In this document: piece after piece, positions 38,899-54,061 of the stretch
Layout of the letters: the number at the start of each line of letters is the position of its first letter
How positions within the stretch are numbered: position 1 is the stretch's first letter
NCBI RefSeq assembly: GCF_946408925.1
Contig: NZ_CAMJUE010000007.1
Location: 1-56,453, forward strand
Direction of reading: 5' to 3'
Source: an uncultured Methanobrevibacter sp.
GTDB lineage: Archaea; Methanobacteriota; Methanobacteria; Methanobacteriales; Methanobacteriaceae
DNA: 56,453 nucleotides
Position numbers and translations under genes: made by a program
The notes under the pieces: generated by a model
Seen by the model: only the letters and a program-made list of their open reading frames with translations
The model's database searches: none
Told to the model about the DNA's origin: nothing

Positions 38899-38904
38899 GT
38901 AACT

Positions 38905-38910
38905 GGAGGT
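38905..38910 (+). promoter_or_regulatory. Ribosome binding site that decides the giant gene's start
   Basis: GGAGGT is a full Shine-Dalgarno sequence. It stands 7 bases before ATT 38918, ideal for initiation there, but 34 bases before the first ATG (38945), too far to serve it. Confidence 0.7.
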
Positions 38911-38917
38911 TAAATTT

Positions 38918-41900
38918 ATTAAATCAAAAATTATTATTGTCTGTATGATTCTAGTCATGCTGGTTTCCATAACAACAGTTGTGGCCAGTGACGTTGACGA
39001 TTCAACTACAGGCGCAAACGACAACAATCTGACGGTTCAAAACAGTGTTGAAAACACTGTTGTTGGATCTGAAAATCAGGAAATGATAAATACAGGACAG
39101 GACACTGGAGGTGATCAGGAGGATACACTTTCGGCCAGTTCTGATGAGGATGTTTTGAGTGAAATGGATTTCTATCAATTGAGTTATGATATAAATCATG
39201 GGGGATCTTATATTACTTTAAATGATGATTATAAGTATCCTGGCACATACAATGAACCAGTGGAAATTTACTATCATGATAATTTTGTTCTTGATGGTCA
39301 AGGACATACAATAGATGGTAATGGCAAAACATCTATTTTTAAAATACAGTCATATGTTCATAATGTGACTTTTAAGAATATTAAATTCATTAATTCTGGA
39401 AAATCTGCAATTATTTTTGACCATACTTATGATAGTATTTTTAATTCATTTAATTTTATTAATTGTACATTTGAAAATAATAATGGTAATAATGGCGGAG
39501 CCATATGTTGTGGAGACATTCATGGTGTAATAAACATTACCAATTCAACTTTTAATAATAATTCTGCTTCTGGTAGAGGTGGGGCTCTTTATTGTGGTAA
39601 TGTAAAGAATATGCACACTACAATAAATATTGAAAACACTGTTTTTACTGAAAACCATGCATATGGTTATGGGGGAGTAATCTATACATATCAGTCTGCA
39701 GATTTATATATTAAATTTTCAAACTTTACCCGCAACTATGGTTATAGTGAAGGAGGAGTTATTAGAAATTCTGGAATCTTAGATATCGACGGATGTAACT
39801 TTTATTCAAATAGAGCTCATACTAGTGATGGGGGTGTGATTTTTATGGGACAAACTGTGGCAACTAATATTAAAAATTCTCGCTTTGAAGATAATTATTC
39901 AATTAGGAGAGGTGGTGTAATAATGAGTTATGGTGTTACCTTTGATGATTGTGTCTTTGTTAACAATGGTGTAGACCCTGACGGTGCTGGCGATTATGGT
40001 CGTGGAGGAGTTCTGTTTTCTAGAGATGGTACTAATGTTTTTAGAAATTGTAATTTCACTGGCAATTTTGCTCGAGAGGGTGGTGTAATGTGTTCAGATT
40101 ATAGGACATTTGTTCTGTCAACATTTGCATGTAATTTCGATAATAATTCTGCTTCTACAAATGGGGGTGTAATTTTCAGTGCTGCAAAGAGTACTACAAC
40201 AGTTTCAAATTCATATTTCAATAATAACTCTGCTCAACTTGGTGGGGCTATTCTAACAATGTATGAGAAGGGTGTTACAACTGGAACTTTTATGGTGCAG
40301 GAGTCTGAATTTACTAACAATAAAGCATCCATTGATGGAGGGGCACTTTATATTGGAACTTCAAATTATCAAATTGAATCTACAACATTTCGTAATAACA
40401 CTGCATCTATGGGAGGCGCTATTTATTGTGGTGGTAATAATGGGTTTGTAAATAAATGTACTTTTGAATCAAATAATGCAGTTACAGGTGTTTCAGTGTA
40501 CTGGAAATCAAATAACGGTGAAATTATTAGGTCCACATTTAAGGATGATTATCCAACTAGAAGTTCTGTTTATTGGGAAGGTACTGGTGGAAAAATATCT
40601 CAATCCGCTTTCAATGGTACAAATGTAATTCATATTGCCAATACTGCATCAGTTGTTCTTACATCAAACACTCAAACTTCAAGTTCATATGATGGATCTT
40701 CCGTAAATGTTGAAGGTCAGGCTTCATTTTCCCTAAATGAATTTATGAATGCAATCTATAATAAGGGTGTAATTTTATCACAAACATACATGATAACCTT
40801 AAATAATATTACTGTAATCACTGATGTTAATTCATTGCCAGTGTTTTCACGTATTGAAGATGATAACGGAAACTCCATTAAAGTTGATGAAAACATAACA
40901 ATTTTTTATGATAATGGTGTTCAATTGGCAACCACATTCAATAATACAGATTATGTGGCTTATGTAAGCAATCTTGCCATCGGATTACATAATTTTACTT
41001 CTTCAGGTTATAAGACTTCCAGTTTTAATAACATTGAAATTAAAGATGGTAAAATATTATACTTGGTATTGAATCTTACAGTTAATCAAACTAATTATGG
41101 TGAGAAGGTTGTATTTACAGCAACTCTTGTTAACACCACTATCAATGGTACAATTGTATTTAATGTGAATGATGTTAACTATTATCAGCCTCTTATAAAT
41201 GGTGTTTCTAATTTAACATTATATAATTTGGCTCCTAACGAATATAGGATTACTGCAACATATAAGGAATTCAATCAGACATTAAATGCTAATGTTACTA
41301 TTGATGTGCAATTGCGTAACAGTACCATAAATATTATTGCCAATAACATTACTTATGGTGGGGTTGTTACTGTTAATATAACTACTACTAATGGTACAAC
41401 TGGTACTGTTCATCTATTTGTTAATAATAAGATGTATACAGTCACATTAAAAAATAGTACTGCTCAACTTAATCTAACTAATCTGGCAGGAGGGTCATAT
41501 ACCATATTTGGAGTATATAATGGTGATATAAACTTTAATGGTAATTATAATGAGACTTCATTCACTGTTAGTAAGCTGAATGCTACTATAACCATTAATG
41601 CTACTAATGTTAATATGGGTGAAACTGCAGTTATAAGAGTTAATATGCCTGCTGATGCGAATGGTAATATATTGGTATATGTGGATAGTAAAGTATATTC
41701 ATTTACAAGACAACCAATAGTAGTTACTGTTAATAATCTAACTGCAGGTAATCATACTGTAAGGGTAATATATGATGGTAATAGTAAATACAATCCAAAC
41801 AGTACAAGTACCTCTTTTATGATAAATAAGATTAATCCAAAACCTTCCATTGTTGTAAGAGATATTAAGGTGGGGGATATTGCTAATATTACAGTTAATC

Positions 41901-44900
41901 TTGATGGTGCTACCAATGCTACAGGTCTTGTTTTATTGACCATTAATGGTATGCAGTATTTCACTAATGCCAATAAAACCAAGGCAACATTTTCAATATC
42001 TGGTCTGGCATATGGAAAATATAACGTAACTGCCACATATATAGAAGATGATGTATATTTCACCAACTCAACTAATGCATCTTTCAAAGTTGACTATGTG
42101 GAAATCACTCCGGCTTTCACTTATTCAGTTGATGAAGATTTGAATGTCATTGCAAATGTAACCGTTCCAAGTGATGCAAACGGAGATATTATTATTGAAG
42201 TGGACGGTAAAAACTACACATCAAATCTTGTAAAAGGCGTAGTAAGTGTATCAATCAATGGTTTGGGCGGTGGACAGTATCCGGTAAAAATCTACTTTGC
42301 AAATGATACAAAATATCTTGCAATAAATACTACTGATTCAATAACATTGAGGAAGGTTGATCCTGCAATTCGCATTGGTTCAGAACATATCTATGTTGGG
42401 GATAATGCAACAATTACTGTCACTCTTCCAAGTGATGCAACAGGTAATGTAACAATATTCATTAATAAAAATAATTATGATACTAAACCTATTGTAAATG
42501 GAAGTGCAACATTTACTGTATCTGGTCTGGCATTTGGTAATTATACAGTTGATGCAAATTACACTGGGGATAGAAAATATAATTCCATTAAAAAAGATGG
42601 AATATTGGTTGTTAGAAAAGTGGACCCAAACCCTTATTCATATATTAGTGTTGAGGATATTTTCGTAGGCGAAACTGCAACATTCAACATTACAATGCCA
42701 AGCGATTTAACTGCCAAAATCAATTTGACTGTACAGGGTGAAACCCATGTAGTCAATATTACAAACGGTTTCGGACAAATCAATATTACTGGACTAAAAT
42801 GGGGTCTTCCGGTTCCGGTTCATGCATCATTCTTGGGTAATGAAAAGTATTTAAAATGTGAAAGGGATTATACTGCATTTTCAGTTCACAGGATTACAAA
42901 CTATCCTATCAACATCACTGCAACTACAAATTCAACAAGTGCAAATATTACTGTAACATTGCCTAATGATGCTAATGGAGAAGGTAATATCACTATTGAT
43001 AATAGGGTGTTCCCAGTTACTTATGTAAACGGTAAGGCTAATGTCACTGTTGATAAATTGGTCGCAGGTCAACAGTATGTTGTTGATGCATATTTTACAG
43101 GTGATGATAAATATACCGAAGGTGGAGCAAGTAGAACATTAAATAGTAATAAAACACTTGACTATAATTTCACAGCGGCTGCTAAGGACATATTTGTCGG
43201 TCAAACTGCATACATTAACGTTTACTTACCAAACATTACCAATGGTACAATCACTATTAGAGTTCCCGGCAGAACTCCATATACATATAACGTTAATGAA
43301 ACATTTGTAAATGGAACCTATGATTTCCCAGTTTATAATTTGGCTGCTGGAAGGTATACATGTTACGTTACATACAGTGGTAATGAGATGTATGAATCAA
43401 GTACCAGATCAGGTACAATTGTTGTATCCAAAATCAACACTTCTCCAATTATAAGCTTCAATACCACTTATGTTGGTCAGAACCTAACTATACAGGTCAC
43501 TTTGCCTAGTGATTCAAACGGTACAGTTAACATAACAATTAATGAAAATGTTTACAATGCTACTGTAGTCAATGGAACTGCATATGTAAAGATTCCGGGA
43601 TTGCTTGCTAATACGTATCCTGCAAGTTTATACTACAGCGGTAATGAAAAGTACAATAACCGTACCCAGCCATTTGATGTGACAATCTCAAAAGTTCATG
43701 AATATCAATTTGATCTTGGAGTAATTGACATTAAGGTTGGGGATAATGAAACAATAACTATCAAATTGCCTTCAGACATTGATGTAGATGTAGTAATCAG
43801 TATACCTGGTTATATTAATGAAACTATTCCGTTAACAAATGGAACCGCAACATTCAATGCCACCGGATTTAAAGTTGGAAGATACAATGTAACTGCAAGC
43901 ATCAAGAATAGTGTAAAATATATTGATGATGATGTAACCAGATATTTCACTGTTTCACCGATTGATGACTATCTGTTTAACTTGCATAATGTGAATACGA
44001 CTATTGTAAGGGACAACATTACATTCATATTGGATTTACCTAAAGATGCAACAGGTAATGTGACAGTATTCATCTTCAATGAAAATCATACTGCCGAAGT
44101 TAAAGGTGGTGTAGCCACAATCAAGGTTCCTACCACTCAACAGGGCAATTATCAATTTACAATAAGCTTTAAGGAAGAAGGCAAATATGTCTATAAATCA
44201 CAATCAGGTTATGCATTTGTTGTAAAGACAAATCCAAATGTAAACTTGATTTATAATGCAAGTGTTGATGTTGATAAAAATGTAACTGTGACATTTGTTC
44301 TCGATAAGGATGCAACAGGTAATGTAACCATTACAAGCCGGGGTGTATCATACACTGCAAAACTTGTTAACGGAAGTGCCAACGTAACAATTAAAGGATA
44401 TCCGATATCATCCACATATTCCCCATCAGTATCATACACTGGTGATGAAAAATATAATCCATATTCCGGAACAATTACAATCACCTCTCATAAAGTAGAT
44501 GATTATGATATAACTGTAAACGTTTCAAATATCACTGTGGATGATGAGGAATTGGTAAACATTTCAATTCCAAGTGACGCAACAGAAGATGTATTGGTTT
44601 CAGGTAACTTCTCAGACAATACAATCTCAGTTAAACTCACCAACGGAAACGCAACATTTACAATAAAAGATTTACCTGCCGGAACCTACTACATCAATGT
44701 AAGATACCAAGGATATCAAAAGTATGCCGACAAGAATGTGACAAAAATATTTAGAGTTGACAAGGTTGTACCTCCAATTTCATTAGAATTTGTAAACAAT
44801 GACACTATTGTTGTCAGATTGCCTGCTCTTGCAAATGGTCTTGCAAACATAACTGTTGGAAATGATTTAATAAAAACTCAAATCAACATTACCAATGGTG

Positions 44901-47900
44901 TCGGATCATTGAATATAAGTGGCATACGTCCGGGCAGCTATTCAGTCAACGCTACATTCCTGGGAGGTGCAAGATACCTGCAAAACAGTACAAATATTAC
45001 AATTGAAATTCCAAAAATCAAGGAATACCTCCTGCCTATTACAGTTAAGGACATAATAGTCGGTGAAAATGCTACAATAACTATTGAAGCGCCATTTAAT
45101 GCCACCGGCAAAATGAATTTAACAATTAACAATGGAGATGTTATTGAAGTGCCTATTGTAAATGGTTTTGCCATATATAATGCTACTAAATTGGCTGTTG
45201 GCAAGTACAATGTTTCTGTAAGTTATGCAAATGTTGAATATGAAATTCAAACAAACACTTCCAAATTTGAAGTTAAACAAATTAAAACTAATATTGAAAC
45301 AAAAGTTACAGGTAATTCAACCAACATTAAAGTTAATGTAACCTTAACTGAAAGTGTATATGGTGGTAATTTAACAATCACTATTGATGGAACTCATTAT
45401 AAATTCACACAGATTACTACAAACAAAATAAATTTAACCGTTCCAAGTCTTCCGGGTGAACACGCAATATTTATAGAGTATTCCGGTGATGAAAACCATA
45501 CATATGCAGAGGATTTCATTCCTTTTGAAACTTTCAAAATAAGTGATTATTCATTAACAGTTGATGCAGATGATTTGATAACTGTTGTTGACAATAATAT
45601 TGTAACCGTAATACTTCCAAAAGGAATAGTTGGTGAGGTATATATTTATATTAATGATGAGTTATATGATGAAGCTGCACAGATTAATTCCACAACCGGA
45701 AAAGCAACTTTGGTATTGGATAGGTTGCCAAGCGGCAATTACACAATCAGAGCAGCTTTCTCAAGCAATCGTTATGAATTAAAAGAAAACACAACCAACT
45801 TCACAGTCATAAAGTTAAACACAACAATCAGTGTAAACGTAACAGACATTACAAAAGACTTAACAGAAGTAATCAATGTTACTGTAAACAAGAATGCTAC
45901 TGGGTATGTTGAAATATTTGTAAATAACGTAACTTTCAGAGTTAAAGTGGAAAATGGATCTGCAATATTGCTCAGATCCAACTTGGATGATAAGGTTTAT
46001 AATGTTACTGCAACCTACATTGGTGATGATTATTACAATTCAAACACAACCAATGTAAGTTTCACAGTCTCAAAAATCCCAGTAAACATTACAATCACTG
46101 CAAAAGACATTGTCATCGGTCAGGAAGCAAACTTCACTATAAACACTTCAAGACCGATTACAGATCAGGTGACTGTAAGAATAGGCAATAGAAACTACAC
46201 TGCTATTCTCTATAATGGTGTAGGTACTTTAATTGTTCTCGGACAGAATATCGGCACTCACAACGTTACCGTAATCTATGAAGGTGATGATGATTACCTG
46301 CCTGCAAACGACACAATCAACATAACAGTGCATGATAAGCTTCCAACCTCTGTAAAAGTAAATGTGACCAACATTACAGTCGGTGAAACCGTAACAATCT
46401 ATGTGAATGTTACCGGTGCTCAAAACGGTACCGTAACAATCTACATGTTGGGTAATCCGATTGTTAAAACAGTTGTAAACGGCACTGCAAACTTCACATA
46501 CCCCAACCTGGCAGCACGTGGCTACCACTTCACTGTGGAATACAATGAAAACACATTCTACAAGTCAAGCACTGCTACCGGAGACTTTACAGTATTCAAG
46601 AAATCTGCTCCAATCAGTGCCACTGTAACCAATGCTACTGTAGGAGACACTGAATACATTAATGTTTACCTGCCAACAAACGCTACAGGTAACATATTGC
46701 TTTCCGTAAACGGTTCAAACTACTACTCACCACTTAAGGGTGGTGTTGCAAGGTTTAACGTAACTGGTCTTGCAATAGGTAATCACACTGCACACATTAC
46801 ATTCAGAGGAGATGACAATTATCTCGCAAACGAAACAGATATTAATTTAACAACCGCTAAACGTGTACTTACAATCAACATTACTTCAGAAAAACCTGTA
46901 ATCGTTATTGGACATCCGGTTGTTTTCATTATTCAAACATCTGCTAACGTTACAGAAGTGGTGACAGTTAAAATCATTGACAGAACCACAAATGCTGAGG
47001 TTTCAAGCAACAATACATTTGTCGAAAACGGTAAGGGCACATACACAGTCTTAGGATTGGCTGCAGGTAACTATACTGCTAAGGTAATATTTGCAGGTAA
47101 CAGTCAATATGATAGAGTTACCAACAAGACCAACTTCACAGTATCAGGTAAATTGCCGACCAGCTTGAATATTAGTGTGGCCAATATCGTTTTAGGAGAA
47201 AACGCTACAATTTATGTGAATGTGACCGGTGCTTTAACAGGTAGAGTAACACTTAACATGGCTGGAAATCCTCAAACCAAGGATGTTGTCGACGGTAAGG
47301 TCAACTTCACAGTATCCGGATTGTCCGCACGTGACTATCACGTAACCGTAACATATGTTGAAAACGATAATTATCTCACAAGCACCAACGCAACAGACTT
47401 TACAGTATACAGGAAAAACTCAACAGTTTCAATCAATGCCACAAACATCCTTGTGGGCGAAACTGAAGTATTCAATGTAACTGTAACTCCAGGTGCAACT
47501 GGTTATGTCTTAATCAGCTTTGCTGATTTTAAACACTACGTGGACATTAACACAACAAACAACTTCCTGGTTCCTGTTGCTGATCTGCCTGTAGGGGAAT
47601 ATAATGTGACTATAACCTACTCCGGTGACAGCAATTACTTCAATTCAACCGGTAATTCTTCATTCAACATTACAAAACGTGTGACTCCAATTGTCATTTC
47701 ATGCAATCCGATTATCATTGAAGGTCATTCCGTAACATTCGCAATCACAACCAACAGCACAATAACTGAAGTTGTAACAATCCGTGTGAATGGCACAAAC
47801 TACACATCATTTGTAGTAAACGGCAGAGGAAACTACACAGTATACAACCTGCCTTCCGGTAATCACACTGCATATGTATACCTTGCTGAAAACTCCAGAT

Positions 47901-50900
47901 TCAAGGCTGCAAGCAACCATACTAACTTTACAGTCACAACAAAACTGCCTTCAAAGGTTACTATTGTTAATGTAACTGATGTTACTGTAGGCGATAATGT
48001 AGTCATCCGTGTAAATGTTACCAAAGGAGCAACAGGCATTGTATCATTGTCCATTTACGGTAAAGTCATTAACATGCCTCTTGTAAACGGCACTGCTAAC
48101 TTTACAGTTTCCAATCTTCCGGCTCGTGAATTCCCATTCACAGTATACTATCGTGGAGATAATAATTACCTGACAAGCAATGGTACAGGCCATGTGACAG
48201 TTAACAAGAAGGTTGCTGCAATAACACTGAACGTTACAAACAGTTATGTTGATGAAGTGGATGTAATCAATGTGACAGTTCCTGAAAATGCAACCGGACA
48301 TGTTTTAATCTCCCTTGGAGAAATGCATGTTTATGCACAAATCAACGGCTCAAATGTATTGAATGTAATCATTACTGAATTGCCTATAGGAGAATACAAT
48401 GTAACAGCCGAATATGTTGGAGATGAAAACTTCACTTCCGCATATGCAAACGCTGCATTCAATGTAACCAAACGTAATGTAAAAATAAACATTACATGTG
48501 ATCCTGTAATCATTGACGGACACCCTGTAACATTCAACATTCAAACAGACTACAACATTACTTCAGTTATAACAATCCGCGTAAACGGTACAAACTACAC
48601 TTCATTTATCCAGAAAGGTAAAGGTACATACACTGTTTACGGATTGAAAACAGGAAGCTACACTGCTGAAGTCTTCTTTGATGGAAATGAACTGTACAAT
48701 GGCACATACAATAAGACTGACTTTGTCATGACTGGTAAATATCCGGTTTCAATTAAAGTTAAAGTTGCAAACATTACTTTAGGTCAGAACGCTACAGTTT
48801 ATGTGAATGTAACTGATATGGAAGGAAATCCTATCAATTCAGGTAATGTAACTCTTAACATTGCAGGTAGGCCTCAAAACAAGGCAGTTGTCAACGGTAA
48901 AGTGAACTTCACTGTAGCTGACTTGATTGCACGTGATTATCACGTAACCGCAACATACTCCGGAACCGATGATTACCTGTCCAATTCAACAAGCACTGAC
49001 TTTACAGTATTCAGAAAAGAATCAGACATAAAGATTAATGTGACAAGCATTAATGTAGGTCAAAACGAAACAATCAAAATCAATGTGACTTCAGGTGCAA
49101 CTGGTATAGTATTAATCGATATCGCCGGTATACGGGTATATGCAAGACTCAACAACAGCTATGTGGAAGTGCTCTTCGATGATTTAGGTGTCGGCACATA
49201 CAATGTTACTGCAACCTACATGGGAGATGACAAATACTTCAACAGCACTACAAACGCTTCATTTACCGTAACAAAATTGGATACTTCAATCATAATCGAA
49301 GGATCCAACATTACAGTGGTCCAGACTGAAACATTCAACATTACAACTTCAGCAAATATAACCTCTGTAATATTCATTGAAATCGACGGTACAAACTACA
49401 CATCATTCATTGAAAACGGTAAAGGTACATTCACAGTTCCATTCGCTTTAGCCGCTAAAAAATACACAGTCTATGTATACCTGCCTGAAAACGACAGGTA
49501 CAATGCGGTTAGAAACTCAACCAACATTACTGTAAGTGCCAAAAAGGCATCTGCAGTGACAGTAAACGCTACAAGCATCACTGTTGGAGATGAAATGACA
49601 ATTTATGTGAATGTGACTGACGGCGCAACAGGCAATGTGGCTGTTTCAATTGCAGGTAACGTTTACAATCTTGTGCTCAACAATAGCAGAGCAAATGTAA
49701 CCATTAAAAACCTGACTGCACGTAACTACCATGTATCTGCAATTTACATAGGTGATGATTACTACCTCTCAAGTAGAGGTACAGCGGACTTTGTCGTAAA
49801 CAAAAAGGTATCTGCACTCAATGTGACTGCAACAAACATCACTGTTGACAGTCCTACAACAATCAGCGTTAAAATCACTAACGGAACAACCGGTGTTGTA
49901 TTGATTGATATCAATGGAACTGACTATTATGCAACCATTGAAAATGGTGCTGCAGTACTGACAGTTAAAAACTTGGTTGTTGGAACATACAATGTAACTG
50001 TAATATATGAGGGTGATGCAAACTACACTTCCTCTGTAAACTCAACCAGGTTCAGTGTTTCCAAACTCAACTCACAAATCACAGTTCAAGTTCTTGGAAA
50101 TGAAAAGGTTGCACAGGGAAATGATGTTTTAATTAATGTGACAGGTCCTAAAGATGCAACAGGCATTGCTATCGTAACCGTAAAACACGGTTCTGAATCT
50201 GAAGACTACACTGTATACATCAACAATGGTGAAGGTCTGCTCATTGTCTCAAAACCTCATGTTGCTCACTACACTGTGACTGCCACATATCAGGAAAACT
50301 ACAAATACCTGTCAAATGTTTCAAACCCTGATGAATTTGAAGTATATGCAAGCGGTGTAGGATTGGATGTGGACACCCACAACATTTATGTTGGTGACAA
50401 TGAAACAATCACAATCTCAGTTCAGGGCAACTATGATGGTAATATTGTAAATATAACCATTGACGGCAACATCAAGTTCACAGCTCCTCTTGTATACAAT
50501 GCTGCAGGCAATGTGAGTGTAGCAAAATACAACTACACTGGAAGATTAGTTGCAGGCATCCATCAGGTTGATGCGGTATTTGTATCAGATGAAGGTGACA
50601 GGAACATCACTCACTCAGGATCTTCCACATTCATTGTATCCAAAAACAACTCAACAGTTGGAATCCTGCCGATTTCAAACATTAAAGTTGGCCAAAATAA
50701 CACAATCGAATTGACAATCCTGCCGAGTGATGCTACAGGAACCATTGATGTTTATGTAAACGGTGAAAGACATACTGTAAATGTCAATAATCTTACTTTA
50801 AAACTCACCGGTTTGGCTGCAGGACATTATGTTGTTCAGGCAATGTATGGTGGAGATGCAAAATACCTCTCATCCAGTGCCAATGCAACATTTGACGTAT

Positions 50901-53900
50901 ACAAGAACAATATCACAGTCAAACTTGAAGTGGTTGACATTAAAGTGGGAGACACACAATACCTCAACGTAACATTGGCTGATGATGCACAGGGTCATGT
51001 ATTGATTAACATCAACGGTACTCGCTACTACGCTGAAATCAGAAACGGTGTGGCCAGTGTCAACGTTACAGGATTGCAGGTTGGCAAACATGATGTCAAT
51101 GTGACATTTGTCGGTGATGATAAGTACTATGCCAACTCAACAACCGGCAGCTTCAATGTGACTAAACTCGATACCTCAATTGTCATTAAAGGATATAACA
51201 TTATTGTCGGTCAGGATGTCGTATTGAACATCACTACTTCTGCAAACCTTACTGAAGTAGTATACATTGAAGTAAATGGTGTAAATCAGACTGCTTTCAT
51301 CAAGGAAGGTAAAGGCAACTTCACCTTAACCGGATTGAATGTAGGTCCTCAAACCGTTAAGGTGTACTTCCCAGGTAACACCCAATACGGTGCTATTGAT
51401 AACGAAACCACATTCACAGTAAGTCCGAAGATTTCAACTTCAATCAATGTGACCGTAGCCGATATAACAGTTGGAGAAAACATTACAGTTTATGTGAATG
51501 CAACCAAAGGAATCAACGGTCCGGTATATGTGACAATTGCAGGAGTGGCATATACTCGTGAGCTTGTTGACGGTAAGGTCAACTTTACAGTACCAGGCCT
51601 AATCGCTCGTGACTATGTAGTGTCAGCATTCTTCATGGGCAACACTGAATATGAGTTATGCAACACTACATCAACATTCAAAGTCCACAAGAAAGACACT
51701 CCAATAACTATTGAAGTTACAGACATCAAGGTTGGAGAAACCGAAATAATCAACGTGACTGTTGACTCCAACGCTACTGGAAACGTACTGATCAGTATTG
51801 GAAGCATTCATGTTTATGCTGATTTAAACAAAGGTAGAGCCAGTGTCAACATCACCGGTTTAGGTGTTGGCAAACACAATGTGACCGTAACCTATGTCGG
51901 AGATGGTAACTACAACGGAAATGAAACAAACGGATCATTTGAAGTGACCAAGCTCAAAACTTCAATTACAATTGAGACAAACAACACTTACATCGGTCAG
52001 CCTGTGGAATTCATAATCAAAACTTCAGCAAACTTCACTGAAGTTGTGACCGTAACCATAGGCAACAAGACTTACCACACATTTGTTGAAAACGGTACAG
52101 GTAGCCTTGTGCTTTATGACTTGCCTGTGGGTCCTCACACTGCTGTTGTAAACTTCCCGGGCAACACTCAATATGATGATGCTGAAAACAGCACAGACTT
52201 TGAAGTATATGCTAAAAAAGCTTCTGAAGTGACCGTTAAAGTTGAAAGCATAACCGTAGGTCAAAACGCAACAATCAGGGTCAACATTACCAAAGGAGCA
52301 ACCGGTAGTGTGACAATTGTTCTTGCAGGTCACGAATACACAAGTGAGGTCAACTCAACCACTGGTGAAGTTACATTCAACATCGAAAACTTAACAGCAC
52401 GTAATTATGTGGTTACAGCAATCTATCATGGTGACACATACTACAACTCCAATTCAAGTGATGCTAAATTCACAGTAAGTAAACTCGCTTCAAGTGTTGA
52501 TCTGGAAGTTAAGGACATTCTTGTTGGGGAAACAGAAATTATCAACGTCACAGTGACACCTGGTGCTACAGGTGTTGTATTGATCAACATCAGCGGCACC
52601 TGCTACTATGCAGATTTAGGAAGCGGAATGCCAACATTCACAATCGAAGGTCTTAAACCGGGCAATTATGAAGCGGTAGTAACCTACATGGGTGATAATA
52701 AATATGCAAACAGCACAGCTTCAAAAACATTCACTGTACAGGCGGAAATCACATTGACTGCAGGTGCAAACAACGGCAATACAACACCTGTCACAGTTGA
52801 TGTGGGCGATGAAAACGCAACCGGTGAGGTAACAGTTGTTGTTGATGGTGTTCCATACACTGCAAAAGTTGAAAACGGCACAGCTACAGTCAATGTAGAC
52901 GGAAGCAATCCGGGCGTTAAAGACGCAACAGTAACATACACTCCTGAAGGAAAAGACCCAATCGTACAGAACACAACAGTTGACATTCCTAAGGTAAGCG
53001 AATATCCTGTCAATGTTGAAGTTGTAAATGTGGATAAGGCAAACGGAACCGCAACCATCAAGGTGCAGGCTCCAAGCGATGCTACCGGAAATGCAACAAT
53101 CAAGATTGGTGATCAGACAATCCCTGTAACTCTTGATGAAAACGGTACTGCAATCGTAACCGTAAAAGACATTCCTGTAGGTTCACATGACATTGACGTA
53201 AGCTATGACGGTGATGACAAGTATGTTTCAAAATCCAACAGAACTCATGTAAACATGCCGATCAACTTACCTACAGTTAATGTTGTGGATCATCTGGTAA
53301 GAGGTTGGAACAGTCAGTTTGATTATGAAGCAGTATTTACAAATGAGTTTGGTGAAGTGCTGGTAAACACTACTGTAACATTTATTGTAAACGGTAAGTC
53401 CTACACTGTAAAAACCGAATCTCATGGTATTGCAAGATTGTCTGAAACATTGCCAGTTGGTGAATATACCATATCTTCAGTTAATCCTGTAACTGGTGAA
53501 AATGTTACCAAAAAACTCAGCATTGTTCCTAGGTTAATATACAATAAGGATTTAACCATGGACTTCCGTGACGGTTCACACTGGGACGTATTGGTAATTG
53601 GTGATGATGGTAAACCTGTGGGTGAGGGTGAAATTATTGATATTTATGTAAACACTATTCATTATGTTTCAAAAACAGATAAGAATGGTTATTCTAATTT
53701 GAAAATCAATTTGAACCCTAAAACCTATGATATAATTGCAGAATATAAGAACTTCAAAGTTAACAATAAATTAGTTGTAAAACAAACTCTTAAATTGGTT
53801 AAAAAGACTGTTTCAGTTAAAAAAGGTAAGAAATTAATCTTAAAAGCTACACTCAAATGGTCTAACGGTAAGGGCATTAGCGGTAAAGTAATTAAATTTA

Positions 53901-54061
53901 AGTTTAATAAGAAAACCTATAAGGCTAAAACCAATTCTAAAGGTCTTGCTAAAGTAACTATTAAAGCTAAAGTTACTAAAAAACTTAAGAAGGGTAAAAA
54001 ATACGCATATTCTGCAACATATGTTACAAACACTCTTAAGGGAAAAGTTAAAATTAAATAA
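38918..54061 (+). CDS. Giant secreted adhesin-like protein: beta-helix region plus about 46 Ig-like domains
   Basis: About 5,047 residues if it starts at ATT 38918, or 5,038 from ATG 38945. ATT is preferred because it has a perfect ribosome binding site and gives a basic n-region (KSK) before the hydrophobic signal core, which ends VVAS-DVDD. Next is a parallel beta-helix region (nt about 39160-40790) with repeats such as NNSASGRGGALYCG, like polymorphic-membrane/pectate-lyase repeats. About 46 tandem Ig-like domains of 85-95 residues follow (nt about 41065-53260), typified by xVGETEIINVTV...ATGxVLI...YNVTxxYxGDxxY. They are dense in N-x-S/T sequons. Two divergent domains and a Lys-rich C-terminal domain (53786-54061, with KTNSKGLAK) close the protein. 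No membrane anchor is visible. A role in surface adhesion is inferred. Confidence 0.88.
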   Translation: MKSKIIIVCMILVMLVSITTVVASDVDDSTTGANDNNLTVQNSVENTVVGSENQEMINTGQDTGGDQEDTLSASSDEDVLSEMDFYQLSYDINHGGSYITLNDDYKYPGTYNEPVEIYYHDNFVLDGQGHTIDGNGKTSIFKIQSYVHNVTFKNIKFINSGKSAIIFDHTYDSIFNSFNFINCTFENNNGNNGGAICCGDIHGVINITNSTFNNNSASGRGGALYCGNVKNMHTTINIENTVFTENHAYGYGGVIYTYQSADLYIKFSNFTRNYGYSEGGVIRNSGILDIDGCNFYSNRAHTSDGGVIFMGQTVATNIKNSRFEDNYSIRRGGVIMSYGVTFDDCVFVNNGVDPDGAGDYGRGGVLFSRDGTNVFRNCNFTGNFAREGGVMCSDYRTFVLSTFACNFDNNSASTNGGVIFSAAKSTTTVSNSYFNNNSAQLGGAILTMYEKGVTTGTFMVQESEFTNNKASIDGGALYIGTSNYQIESTTFRNNTASMGGAIYCGGNNGFVNKCTFESNNAVTGVSVYWKSNNGEIIRSTFKDDYPTRSSVYWEGTGGKISQSAFNGTNVIHIANTASVVLTSNTQTSSSYDGSSVNVEGQASFSLNEFMNAIYNKGVILSQTYMITLNNITVITDVNSLPVFSRIEDDNGNSIKVDENITIFYDNGVQLATTFNNTDYVAYVSNLAIGLHNFTSSGYKTSSFNNIEIKDGKILYLVLNLTVNQTNYGEKVVFTATLVNTTINGTIVFNVNDVNYYQPLINGVSNLTLYNLAPNEYRITATYKEFNQTLNANVTIDVQLRNSTINIIANNITYGGVVTVNITTTNGTTGTVHLFVNNKMYTVTLKNSTAQLNLTNLAGGSYTIFGVYNGDINFNGNYNETSFTVSKLNATITINATNVNMGETAVIRVNMPADANGNILVYVDSKVYSFTRQPIVVTVNNLTAGNHTVRVIYDGNSKYNPNSTSTSFMINKINPKPSIVVRDIKVGDIANITVNLDGATNATGLVLLTINGMQYFTNANKTKATFSISGLAYGKYNVTATYIEDDVYFTNSTNASFKVDYVEITPAFTYSVDEDLNVIANVTVPSDANGDIIIEVDGKNYTSNLVKGVVSVSINGLGGGQYPVKIYFANDTKYLAINTTDSITLRKVDPAIRIGSEHIYVGDNATITVTLPSDATGNVTIFINKNNYDTKPIVNGSATFTVSGLAFGNYTVDANYTGDRKYNSIKKDGILVVRKVDPNPYSYISVEDIFVGETATFNITMPSDLTAKINLTVQGETHVVNITNGFGQINITGLKWGLPVPVHASFLGNEKYLKCERDYTAFSVHRITNYPINITATTNSTSANITVTLPNDANGEGNITIDNRVFPVTYVNGKANVTVDKLVAGQQYVVDAYFTGDDKYTEGGASRTLNSNKTLDYNFTAAAKDIFVGQTAYINVYLPNITNGTITIRVPGRTPYTYNVNETFVNGTYDFPVYNLAAGRYTCYVTYSGNEMYESSTRSGTIVVSKINTSPIISFNTTYVGQNLTIQVTLPSDSNGTVNITINENVYNATVVNGTAYVKIPGLLANTYPASLYYSGNEKYNNRTQPFDVTISKVHEYQFDLGVIDIKVGDNETITIKLPSDIDVDVVISIPGYINETIPLTNGTATFNATGFKVGRYNVTASIKNSVKYIDDDVTRYFTVSPIDDYLFNLHNVNTTIVRDNITFILDLPKDATGNVTVFIFNENHTAEVKGGVATIKVPTTQQGNYQFTISFKEEGKYVYKSQSGYAFVVKTNPNVNLIYNASVDVDKNVTVTFVLDKDATGNVTITSRGVSYTAKLVNGSANVTIKGYPISSTYSPSVSYTGDEKYNPYSGTITITSHKVDDYDITVNVSNITVDDEELVNISIPSDATEDVLVSGNFSDNTISVKLTNGNATFTIKDLPAGTYYINVRYQGYQKYADKNVTKIFRVDKVVPPISLEFVNNDTIVVRLPALANGLANITVGNDLIKTQINITNGVGSLNISGIRPGSYSVNATFLGGARYLQNSTNITIEIPKIKEYLLPITVKDIIVGENATITIEAPFNATGKMNLTINNGDVIEVPIVNGFAIYNATKLAVGKYNVSVSYANVEYEIQTNTSKFEVKQIKTNIETKVTGNSTNIKVNVTLTESVYGGNLTITIDGTHYKFTQITTNKINLTVPSLPGEHAIFIEYSGDENHTYAEDFIPFETFKISDYSLTVDADDLITVVDNNIVTVILPKGIVGEVYIYINDELYDEAAQINSTTGKATLVLDRLPSGNYTIRAAFSSNRYELKENTTNFTVIKLNTTISVNVTDITKDLTEVINVTVNKNATGYVEIFVNNVTFRVKVENGSAILLRSNLDDKVYNVTATYIGDDYYNSNTTNVSFTVSKIPVNITITAKDIVIGQEANFTINTSRPITDQVTVRIGNRNYTAILYNGVGTLIVLGQNIGTHNVTVIYEGDDDYLPANDTINITVHDKLPTSVKVNVTNITVGETVTIYVNVTGAQNGTVTIYMLGNPIVKTVVNGTANFTYPNLAARGYHFTVEYNENTFYKSSTATGDFTVFKKSAPISATVTNATVGDTEYINVYLPTNATGNILLSVNGSNYYSPLKGGVARFNVTGLAIGNHTAHITFRGDDNYLANETDINLTTAKRVLTINITSEKPVIVIGHPVVFIIQTSANVTEVVTVKIIDRTTNAEVSSNNTFVENGKGTYTVLGLAAGNYTAKVIFAGNSQYDRVTNKTNFTVSGKLPTSLNISVANIVLGENATIYVNVTGALTGRVTLNMAGNPQTKDVVDGKVNFTVSGLSARDYHVTVTYVENDNYLTSTNATDFTVYRKNSTVSINATNILVGETEVFNVTVTPGATGYVLISFADFKHYVDINTTNNFLVPVADLPVGEYNVTITYSGDSNYFNSTGNSSFNITKRVTPIVISCNPIIIEGHSVTFAITTNSTITEVVTIRVNGTNYTSFVVNGRGNYTVYNLPSGNHTAYVYLAENSRFKAASNHTNFTVTTKLPSKVTIVNVTDVTVGDNVVIRVNVTKGATGIVSLSIYGKVINMPLVNGTANFTVSNLPAREFPFTVYYRGDNNYLTSNGTGHVTVNKKVAAITLNVTNSYVDEVDVINVTVPENATGHVLISLGEMHVYAQINGSNVLNVIITELPIGEYNVTAEYVGDENFTSAYANAAFNVTKRNVKINITCDPVIIDGHPVTFNIQTDYNITSVITIRVNGTNYTSFIQKGKGTYTVYGLKTGSYTAEVFFDGNELYNGTYNKTDFVMTGKYPVSIKVKVANITLGQNATVYVNVTDMEGNPINSGNVTLNIAGRPQNKAVVNGKVNFTVADLIARDYHVTATYSGTDDYLSNSTSTDFTVFRKESDIKINVTSINVGQNETIKINVTSGATGIVLIDIAGIRVYARLNNSYVEVLFDDLGVGTYNVTATYMGDDKYFNSTTNASFTVTKLDTSIIIEGSNITVVQTETFNITTSANITSVIFIEIDGTNYTSFIENGKGTFTVPFALAAKKYTVYVYLPENDRYNAVRNSTNITVSAKKASAVTVNATSITVGDEMTIYVNVTDGATGNVAVSIAGNVYNLVLNNSRANVTIKNLTARNYHVSAIYIGDDYYLSSRGTADFVVNKKVSALNVTATNITVDSPTTISVKITNGTTGVVLIDINGTDYYATIENGAAVLTVKNLVVGTYNVTVIYEGDANYTSSVNSTRFSVSKLNSQITVQVLGNEKVAQGNDVLINVTGPKDATGIAIVTVKHGSESEDYTVYINNGEGLLIVSKPHVAHYTVTATYQENYKYLSNVSNPDEFEVYASGVGLDVDTHNIYVGDNETITISVQGNYDGNIVNITIDGNIKFTAPLVYNAAGNVSVAKYNYTGRLVAGIHQVDAVFVSDEGDRNITHSGSSTFIVSKNNSTVGILPISNIKVGQNNTIELTILPSDATGTIDVYVNGERHTVNVNNLTLKLTGLAAGHYVVQAMYGGDAKYLSSSANATFDVYKNNITVKLEVVDIKVGDTQYLNVTLADDAQGHVLININGTRYYAEIRNGVASVNVTGLQVGKHDVNVTFVGDDKYYANSTTGSFNVTKLDTSIVIKGYNIIVGQDVVLNITTSANLTEVVYIEVNGVNQTAFIKEGKGNFTLTGLNVGPQTVKVYFPGNTQYGAIDNETTFTVSPKISTSINVTVADITVGENITVYVNATKGINGPVYVTIAGVAYTRELVDGKVNFTVPGLIARDYVVSAFFMGNTEYELCNTTSTFKVHKKDTPITIEVTDIKVGETEIINVTVDSNATGNVLISIGSIHVYADLNKGRASVNITGLGVGKHNVTVTYVGDGNYNGNETNGSFEVTKLKTSITIETNNTYIGQPVEFIIKTSANFTEVVTVTIGNKTYHTFVENGTGSLVLYDLPVGPHTAVVNFPGNTQYDDAENSTDFEVYAKKASEVTVKVESITVGQNATIRVNITKGATGSVTIVLAGHEYTSEVNSTTGEVTFNIENLTARNYVVTAIYHGDTYYNSNSSDAKFTVSKLASSVDLEVKDILVGETEIINVTVTPGATGVVLINISGTCYYADLGSGMPTFTIEGLKPGNYEAVVTYMGDNKYANSTASKTFTVQAEITLTAGANNGNTTPVTVDVGDENATGEVTVVVDGVPYTAKVENGTATVNVDGSNPGVKDATVTYTPEGKDPIVQNTTVDIPKVSEYPVNVEVVNVDKANGTATIKVQAPSDATGNATIKIGDQTIPVTLDENGTAIVTVKDIPVGSHDIDVSYDGDDKYVSKSNRTHVNMPINLPTVNVVDHLVRGWNSQFDYEAVFTNEFGEVLVNTTVTFIVNGKSYTVKTESHGIARLSETLPVGEYTISSVNPVTGENVTKKLSIVPRLIYNKDLTMDFRDGSHWDVLVIGDDGKPVGEGEIIDIYVNTIHYVSKTDKNGYSNLKINLNPKTYDIIAEYKNFKVNNKLVVKQTLKLVKKTVSVKKGKKLILKATLKWSNGKGISGKVIKFKFNKKTYKAKTNSKGLAKVTIKAKVTKKLKKGKKYAYSATYVTNTLKGKVKIK
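46076..50065 (+). repeat. Five copies of a three-domain cassette within the giant gene
   Basis: Fifteen consecutive Ig-like domains repeat in the order C-A-B. C domains read like F-I-T-TSANxTEVVxI and end VENGKGTxTV. A domains read TVGxNxTIYVNVT and (A)RxYHVT. B domains read VGETExINVTVxxxATGxVLIxI. The period is about 266 residues (about 800 bp). Copies differ too much at DNA level to be recent exact duplicates. Confidence 0.75.
51167..52744 (+). repeat. Two further copies of the three-domain cassette
   Basis: Six domains continue the C-A-B order: LDTSIVIKG..., ISTSINVTVADITVG..., KDTPITIEVTDIKVGETE..., then LKTSITIETN..., KASEVTVKVESITVG... and LASSVDLEVKDILVGETE.... A B-type domain at 50906-51166 precedes them. 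Three non-cassette domains (50066-50905) separate this block from the first. Confidence 0.7.

Follow-up and report, generated by a model that had tools for sequence, protein, structure and literature searches.

According to Gupta and Seedorf (2024, PMC11532034), adhesin-like proteins account for over 10% of the genomes of M. smithii and M. stadtmanae, and how they evolved is named there as an open question. The paper gives the domain types, clades, and repeat counts of methanogen adhesins; it describes group I-A adhesins with an N-terminal hydrophobic segment, a beta-helix, and a long run of Ig-like Big_3_5 domains, a type of stalk domain referred to as archaeal Big domains, but no ordered super-repeat, cassette, or change in copy number is described in the sections consulted. 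Searches of the literature for repeat units in methanogen adhesins, or for recombination within their genes, found nothing. Duplication of several domains at once has been reported as a common way in which domain repeats generally grow (PMC1553488). In the A-band super-repeats of titin (PMC10665226) and the seven-domain repeats of nebulin (PMC1553488), homologous but distinct domains are arranged in a fixed order and grew via duplication of a multi-domain unit. The linkers of titin are position-specific (PMC10665226), and its period has been discussed as matching the thick filament. Bacterial Periscope Proteins (PMC8201768) carry surface stalks of highly identical domains whose number varies between strains.

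Here, we describe a locus of the gut methanogen Methanobrevibacter. In the window, i.e., the whole stretch of 56,453 nucleotides that was analyzed, the ORF at 38945-54061 encodes a giant adhesin-like, putative surface protein.

Architecture of the giant protein

The features outside the ordered part of the protein were as follows.

38903-54061, plus strand: giant adhesin-like ORF, 5052 aa from TTG 38903 or 5038 aa from ATG 38945
39542-40255, plus strand: beta-helix region, Pfam Chlam_PMP and Beta_helix matches (limits are those of the best Pfam stretches)
41063-45814, plus strand: d1-d18, unordered Ig-like stalk domains, collinear with all orthologues
52739-53263, plus strand: d45 and d46, terminal Ig-like domains outside the order
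53363-54058, plus strand: C-terminal region, lysine-rich at its end, in which three domains match weakly and in part

The TTG at 38903, which is located 42 bases upstream of the ATG chosen by the ORF caller (38945), is probably the start codon. The TTG start puts a basic n-region (VKFIKSK) ahead of a hydrophobic segment, and the LEVKFIKSK sequence and hydrophobic run upstream of the ATG recur in the orthologue G071. As judged by eye, the segment following the basic start is of the N-terminal signal type. The beta-helix matches were above the cut-off (Beta_helix, 42.6 bits; Chlam_PMP, 69 bits), and the region probably extends beyond the limits given. With a profile built from the protein itself, 46 full Ig-like domains were found, and their Pfam name, also above the cut-off, was Big_3_5. 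The lysine-rich C-terminus (53600-54058) is common to the window and the orthologue G006, whereas far-clade orthologues end differently; it may be a wall-binding or tip region. The flanking genes, encoding a Cas4-like nuclease, a transporter, a nucleotidyltransferase, DUF366, PTPS, and radical SAM proteins, look unrelated.

Order of the Ig-like domains

The first-pass annotation had claimed that three domain types alternate in the strict order C-A-B for five cycles from 46076, that three odd domains interrupt them, that a B domain and two more cycles follow, and that the earlier domains have no such order. Position-blind clustering recovered exactly this string in d20-d44; average linkage with five groups read acd-acd-acd-acd-acd-beb-d-acd-acd. 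The start point had to be moved: although the cycles do run from 46082, the preceding d19 (45821-46075) clusters with B, and its four closest domains are all B. Both blocks therefore have the form B(CAB)n, and the array, beginning at 45821, is better written B(CAB)5-XYZ-B(CAB)2.

45821-46075, plus strand: d19, B-like by clustering and closest domains, opens the ordered array
46082-46861, plus strand: cassette 1 (C 46082-46336, A 46346-46600, B 46607-46861)
46868-47677, plus strand: cassette 2 (C 46868-47149, A 47159-47413, B 47420-47677)
47684-48472, plus strand: cassette 3 (C 47684-47941, A 47954-48208, B 48215-48472)
48479-49276, plus strand: cassette 4 (C 48479-48736, A 48746-49015, B 49022-49276)
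49283-50065, plus strand: cassette 5 (C 49283-49540, A 49550-49804, B 49811-50065, the least typical B)
50072-50905, plus strand: XYZ interruption (X 50072-50350, Y 50357-50644, Z 50654-50905)
50912-51166, plus strand: d38, B, opens the second block
51173-51952, plus strand: cassette 6 (C 51173-51427, A, d40, 51437-51691, B 51698-51952)
51959-52738, plus strand: cassette 7 (C 51959-52213, A 52223-52483, B 52490-52738)

A typical cassette is about 262 aa or 790 bp, and the cassette period in the window is 786-816 bp. Two domains carry inserts that are also present in G006, namely the C domain of cassette 2 (d23, 7 aa) and the A domain of cassette 4 (d30, 5 aa). The outer odd domains of the interruption, d35 and d37, grouped together in clustering, and XYZ itself may be a small X-Y-X unit.

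In d20-d34 (46082-50065), the mean identity was 25% at lag 1, 26% at lag 2, 42% at lag 3, and 45% at lag 6. Domains at equal positions are thus closer than neighbors, as had been proposed for domains i and i+3 and as is the case in the super-repeats of titin and nebulin. None of 20,000 shuffles of the domain order reached the observed lag-3 excess for d20-d34, and the same was true of d20-d44; for d1-d19, 12,820 of 20,000 shuffles were as high, indicating no period-3 order there. Like types averaged 40-44% protein identity and unlike types 24-31%, the separation of A and B being only modest. The period-3 clustering expected of a domain tree was obtained for A and C, each a single group (bootstrap 87 and 98, respectively), but B was not recovered as one group. 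Nearest-neighbor typing matched the cluster type in 21 of 22 domains; the exception was d34, which is B by position but has an A domain as its best match.

Cassette number and junctions in orthologues

Orthologues of the giant protein were present in other Methanobrevibacter species. Its named relatives were nearly all from this genus, many of them from ruminant gut samples, and no viral relatives were found in IMG/VR. Domains d1-d19 were in line in G006, G071, G014, G051, G009, and G064, with per-domain mean identities of 61-92% within the clade of the window and 38-63% between clades, and orthologous domains were under purifying selection (dN 0.06-0.26; dS about 0.6 to saturated). The XYZ block occupied the same place in G006, G071, G014, and G051. 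Between the landmarks d19 and XYZ, the window has five cassettes, G006 and G071 have three each, and G014 and G051 have two each, corresponding to 15, 9, 9, 6, and 6 domains, all multiples of three. The order of types was kept in both blocks, and the number between the landmarks differed by whole cassettes. The comparison covered one genome per species, and the variation seen was between species; most of the genomes compared are MAGs, and G014 is assembled as a single contig.

G006 is syntenic with the window, with matching neighbors of 357, 494, and 264 aa. Its cassette d23-25 consists of a C domain with the 7-aa insert of window d23, an A domain with the 5-aa insert of window d30, and then the counterpart of d31. 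The junction lies inside the A domain, where A is joined to A, in the middle of a 91-kb contig, and G006 has exactly six domains fewer than the window. G071 keeps different cassette members, and its d22 is closest to window d25, which suggests that its change was a separate event from that of G006.

The copies in the window are only 28-62% identical at the protein level, so the array is not expanding there now. The third cassette (WIN_c26) sits on a long branch and shares no more than 45% identity with any other. Neither TRF nor an exact-repeat scan detected a DNA tandem repeat in the window, and a recent tandem duplication there was ruled out. Given the age and divergence of the extra window cassettes, G006 more likely lost cassettes than the window recently gained them, although the two kinds of event are not always distinguishable.

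In the M. millerae MAG SIG13 (G009, SUTF01000011.1), a 732-bp stretch recurs exactly, with an offset of 786 bp. This period equals 262 codons, i.e., three domains; the match begins within a C domain and continues up to the end of the contig. The simplest cause is a tandem repeat of three domains, although an assembler that meets a repeat of this kind may stop or loop, so the contig end calls for caution. Highly identical tandem repeats of the kind known from Periscope Proteins were thus seen in this relative only and not in the window. The proposal of the first-pass annotation that the array grew by duplication of a cassette of about 800 bp is supported by the independent evidence of the cassette numbers of the orthologues, the G006 chimera, and the SIG13 copy, with two corrections, namely the age of the window copies and the likelier loss in G006.

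The A domain d40 (51437-51691) was 77-87% identical to its counterparts in six other orthologues, whereas most other domains were 38-63% identical between clades. The place of this d40-like A domain differs: it is domain 40 of the window protein, domain 34 of the G006 protein, and domain 21 in the far clade, where it is flanked by relatives of window d20 and d41. It is thus a relocated, strongly conserved domain that has kept its type. Recent horizontal transfer was rejected, since the DNA is about 73-77% identical and dS is >1.5 or saturated; with the protein at 77-87%, these values fit conservation by selection better.

Ordered repeats in related giant proteins

Other adhesin-like proteins of Methanobrevibacter also contain super-repeats, with periods from 2 to 6. 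Four single-contig Methanobrevibacter genomes were surveyed (43 proteins, 669 domains), and a period with z >3 was seen in 18 of the 43 proteins; in nine of these it was at lag 1, and in the other nine at lag 2, 3, 4, or 6. A 4701-aa frame in G043 gave a lag-3/lag-6 signal. Period-3 or period-6 order was also observed in the giants L027 (G011), L064+L153 (G043), and L128 (G014); in G011, the DNA identity between copies separated by three or six domains is as high as 80-92%, and that array is therefore young. Giants with period 4 or 5 were L065-L066 (G044), L059 (G014), and L067 (G081), with z of about 6-10. The periods 2, 4, 5, and 6 in related giants rule out that period 3 is special, and the C-A-B array is not unique but represents a general process in well-preserved form.

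Linkers, type signatures, and predicted structure

A survey of 81 junctions in seven orthologues showed that the C>A linker has 21 residues in 26 of 27 cases, A>B 20 residues in 27 of 27, and B>C 20 residues in 26 of 27. The linkers are thus position-specific in a 20-20-21 pattern, as in the titin type of super-repeat, with C>A one residue longer in nearly all junctions. Residues specific to each type were conserved in both clades. Ala-Arg, located in the turn between the fifth and sixth strands, is present in 26 of 26 A domains, and the Arg in no B or C domain; Gly49 is present in all C domains, and Leu32 in 97% of B domains. AlphaFold2 modeled B-C-A-B (17 sequences) as four ordinary Ig-like domains (pLDDT 93.7) whose mutual placement was uncertain (pTM 0.62). 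A fold search of the PDB returned only generic Ig-like stacks (such as RTX adhesin extenders and GhpA) and provided no functional clue.

These data bear on whether the C-A-B triplet is a structural or ligand-binding module, perhaps for a repeating ligand, whose order is kept by selection and not just by descent. The longer C>A linker, retained across species of about 45% identity, speaks for such a module, as do the type-specific residues shared by both clades and the ability of relocated domains, such as the d40-like A, to hold their type. However, linker length in the unordered stalk domains is kept between orthologues about equally well, position by position, which points to a role of linker length throughout the rod and not to a special status of the triplet. 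The extra residue of C>A fits a three-domain structural repeat but also plain descent; recombination of like with like would by itself preserve the order of types; and the variety of periods in related giants, the four ordinary domains of the model, and the generic PDB matches also argue against a module. We therefore regard this explanation as unlikely. Of the three-domain unit suggested by the first-pass annotation, the structural part may hold in view of the 20-20-21 linkers, and no support was found for the ligand-binding part.

Discussion

The explanation that we consider probable is that this part of the stalk lengthened and shortened in units of the C-A-B cassette, through exchange between like domains. 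If domains of the same type that lie three or six positions apart recombine homologously, whole cassettes would be added or removed. The register would stay undisturbed, because like types (40-44%) resemble each other more than unlike ones (24-31%). The biological effect would be on stalk length, with the cassette as the step of change, and cassette number would alter the reach of the end domains from the cell. Each step would probably preserve the geometry of the rod too, since the three linker lengths are kept across species. Judging from this anatomy, the likeliest role of the array is that of a stalk changing length in three-domain steps. A stronger form, in which stalk length is adjusted only in whole three-domain steps and C-A-B is both the geometric repeat of the rod and the recombination unit, seems doubtful; if true, a long stalk could change length while its neighboring domains stayed unlike.

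It is improbable that the order was selected against misfolding, such that unlike neighbors (about 25%) let three-domain duplications survive and single-domain ones not. Adjacent domains in the window protein are indeed dissimilar (mean identity 25%, maximum 44%), and the principle has been published for titin Ig domains (PMC4660218), with Periscope Proteins described as an exception to it (PMC8201768). In the survey of four single-contig genomes, however, pairs at least 80% identical made up 24 of 621 pairs at lag 1 and 22 of 539 at lag 3, a similar frequency. Near-identical neighbors are therefore tolerated in this family, and misfolding avoidance was rejected as a family-wide rule. That the array was inherited whole and merely diverged, with differences in number due to assembly errors, is very improbable: although the window cassettes are old and most of the compared genomes are MAGs, copies this dissimilar would not collapse during assembly, the single-contig G014 carries two cassettes ahead of XYZ, the chimera at the G006 junction is clean and marked by two shared inserts in mid-contig, and SIG13 contains an exact copy.

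This locus offers a clear case of adhesin evolution: the landmarks are fixed, the cassettes can be counted, one recombination junction has been mapped, and a relative contains an exact copy. It makes stalk-length change testable in archaea. The window protein shares both genus and architecture with the group I-A adhesins (PMC11532034). Like Periscope Proteins (PMC8201768), it has a putative surface stalk of varying repeat number that would change the projection of its end domains; unlike them, its unit comprises three unlike domains, its copies are mostly old, and the variation was seen between species only. Titin and nebulin are eukaryotic and intracellular and have longer units, and the window array has no known partner lattice comparable to the thick filament. 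The resemblance to titin and nebulin lies in distinct homologous domains held in a fixed order and growth by a multi-domain unit, and it indicates that cassettes of unlike domains arise also in archaeal surface proteins.
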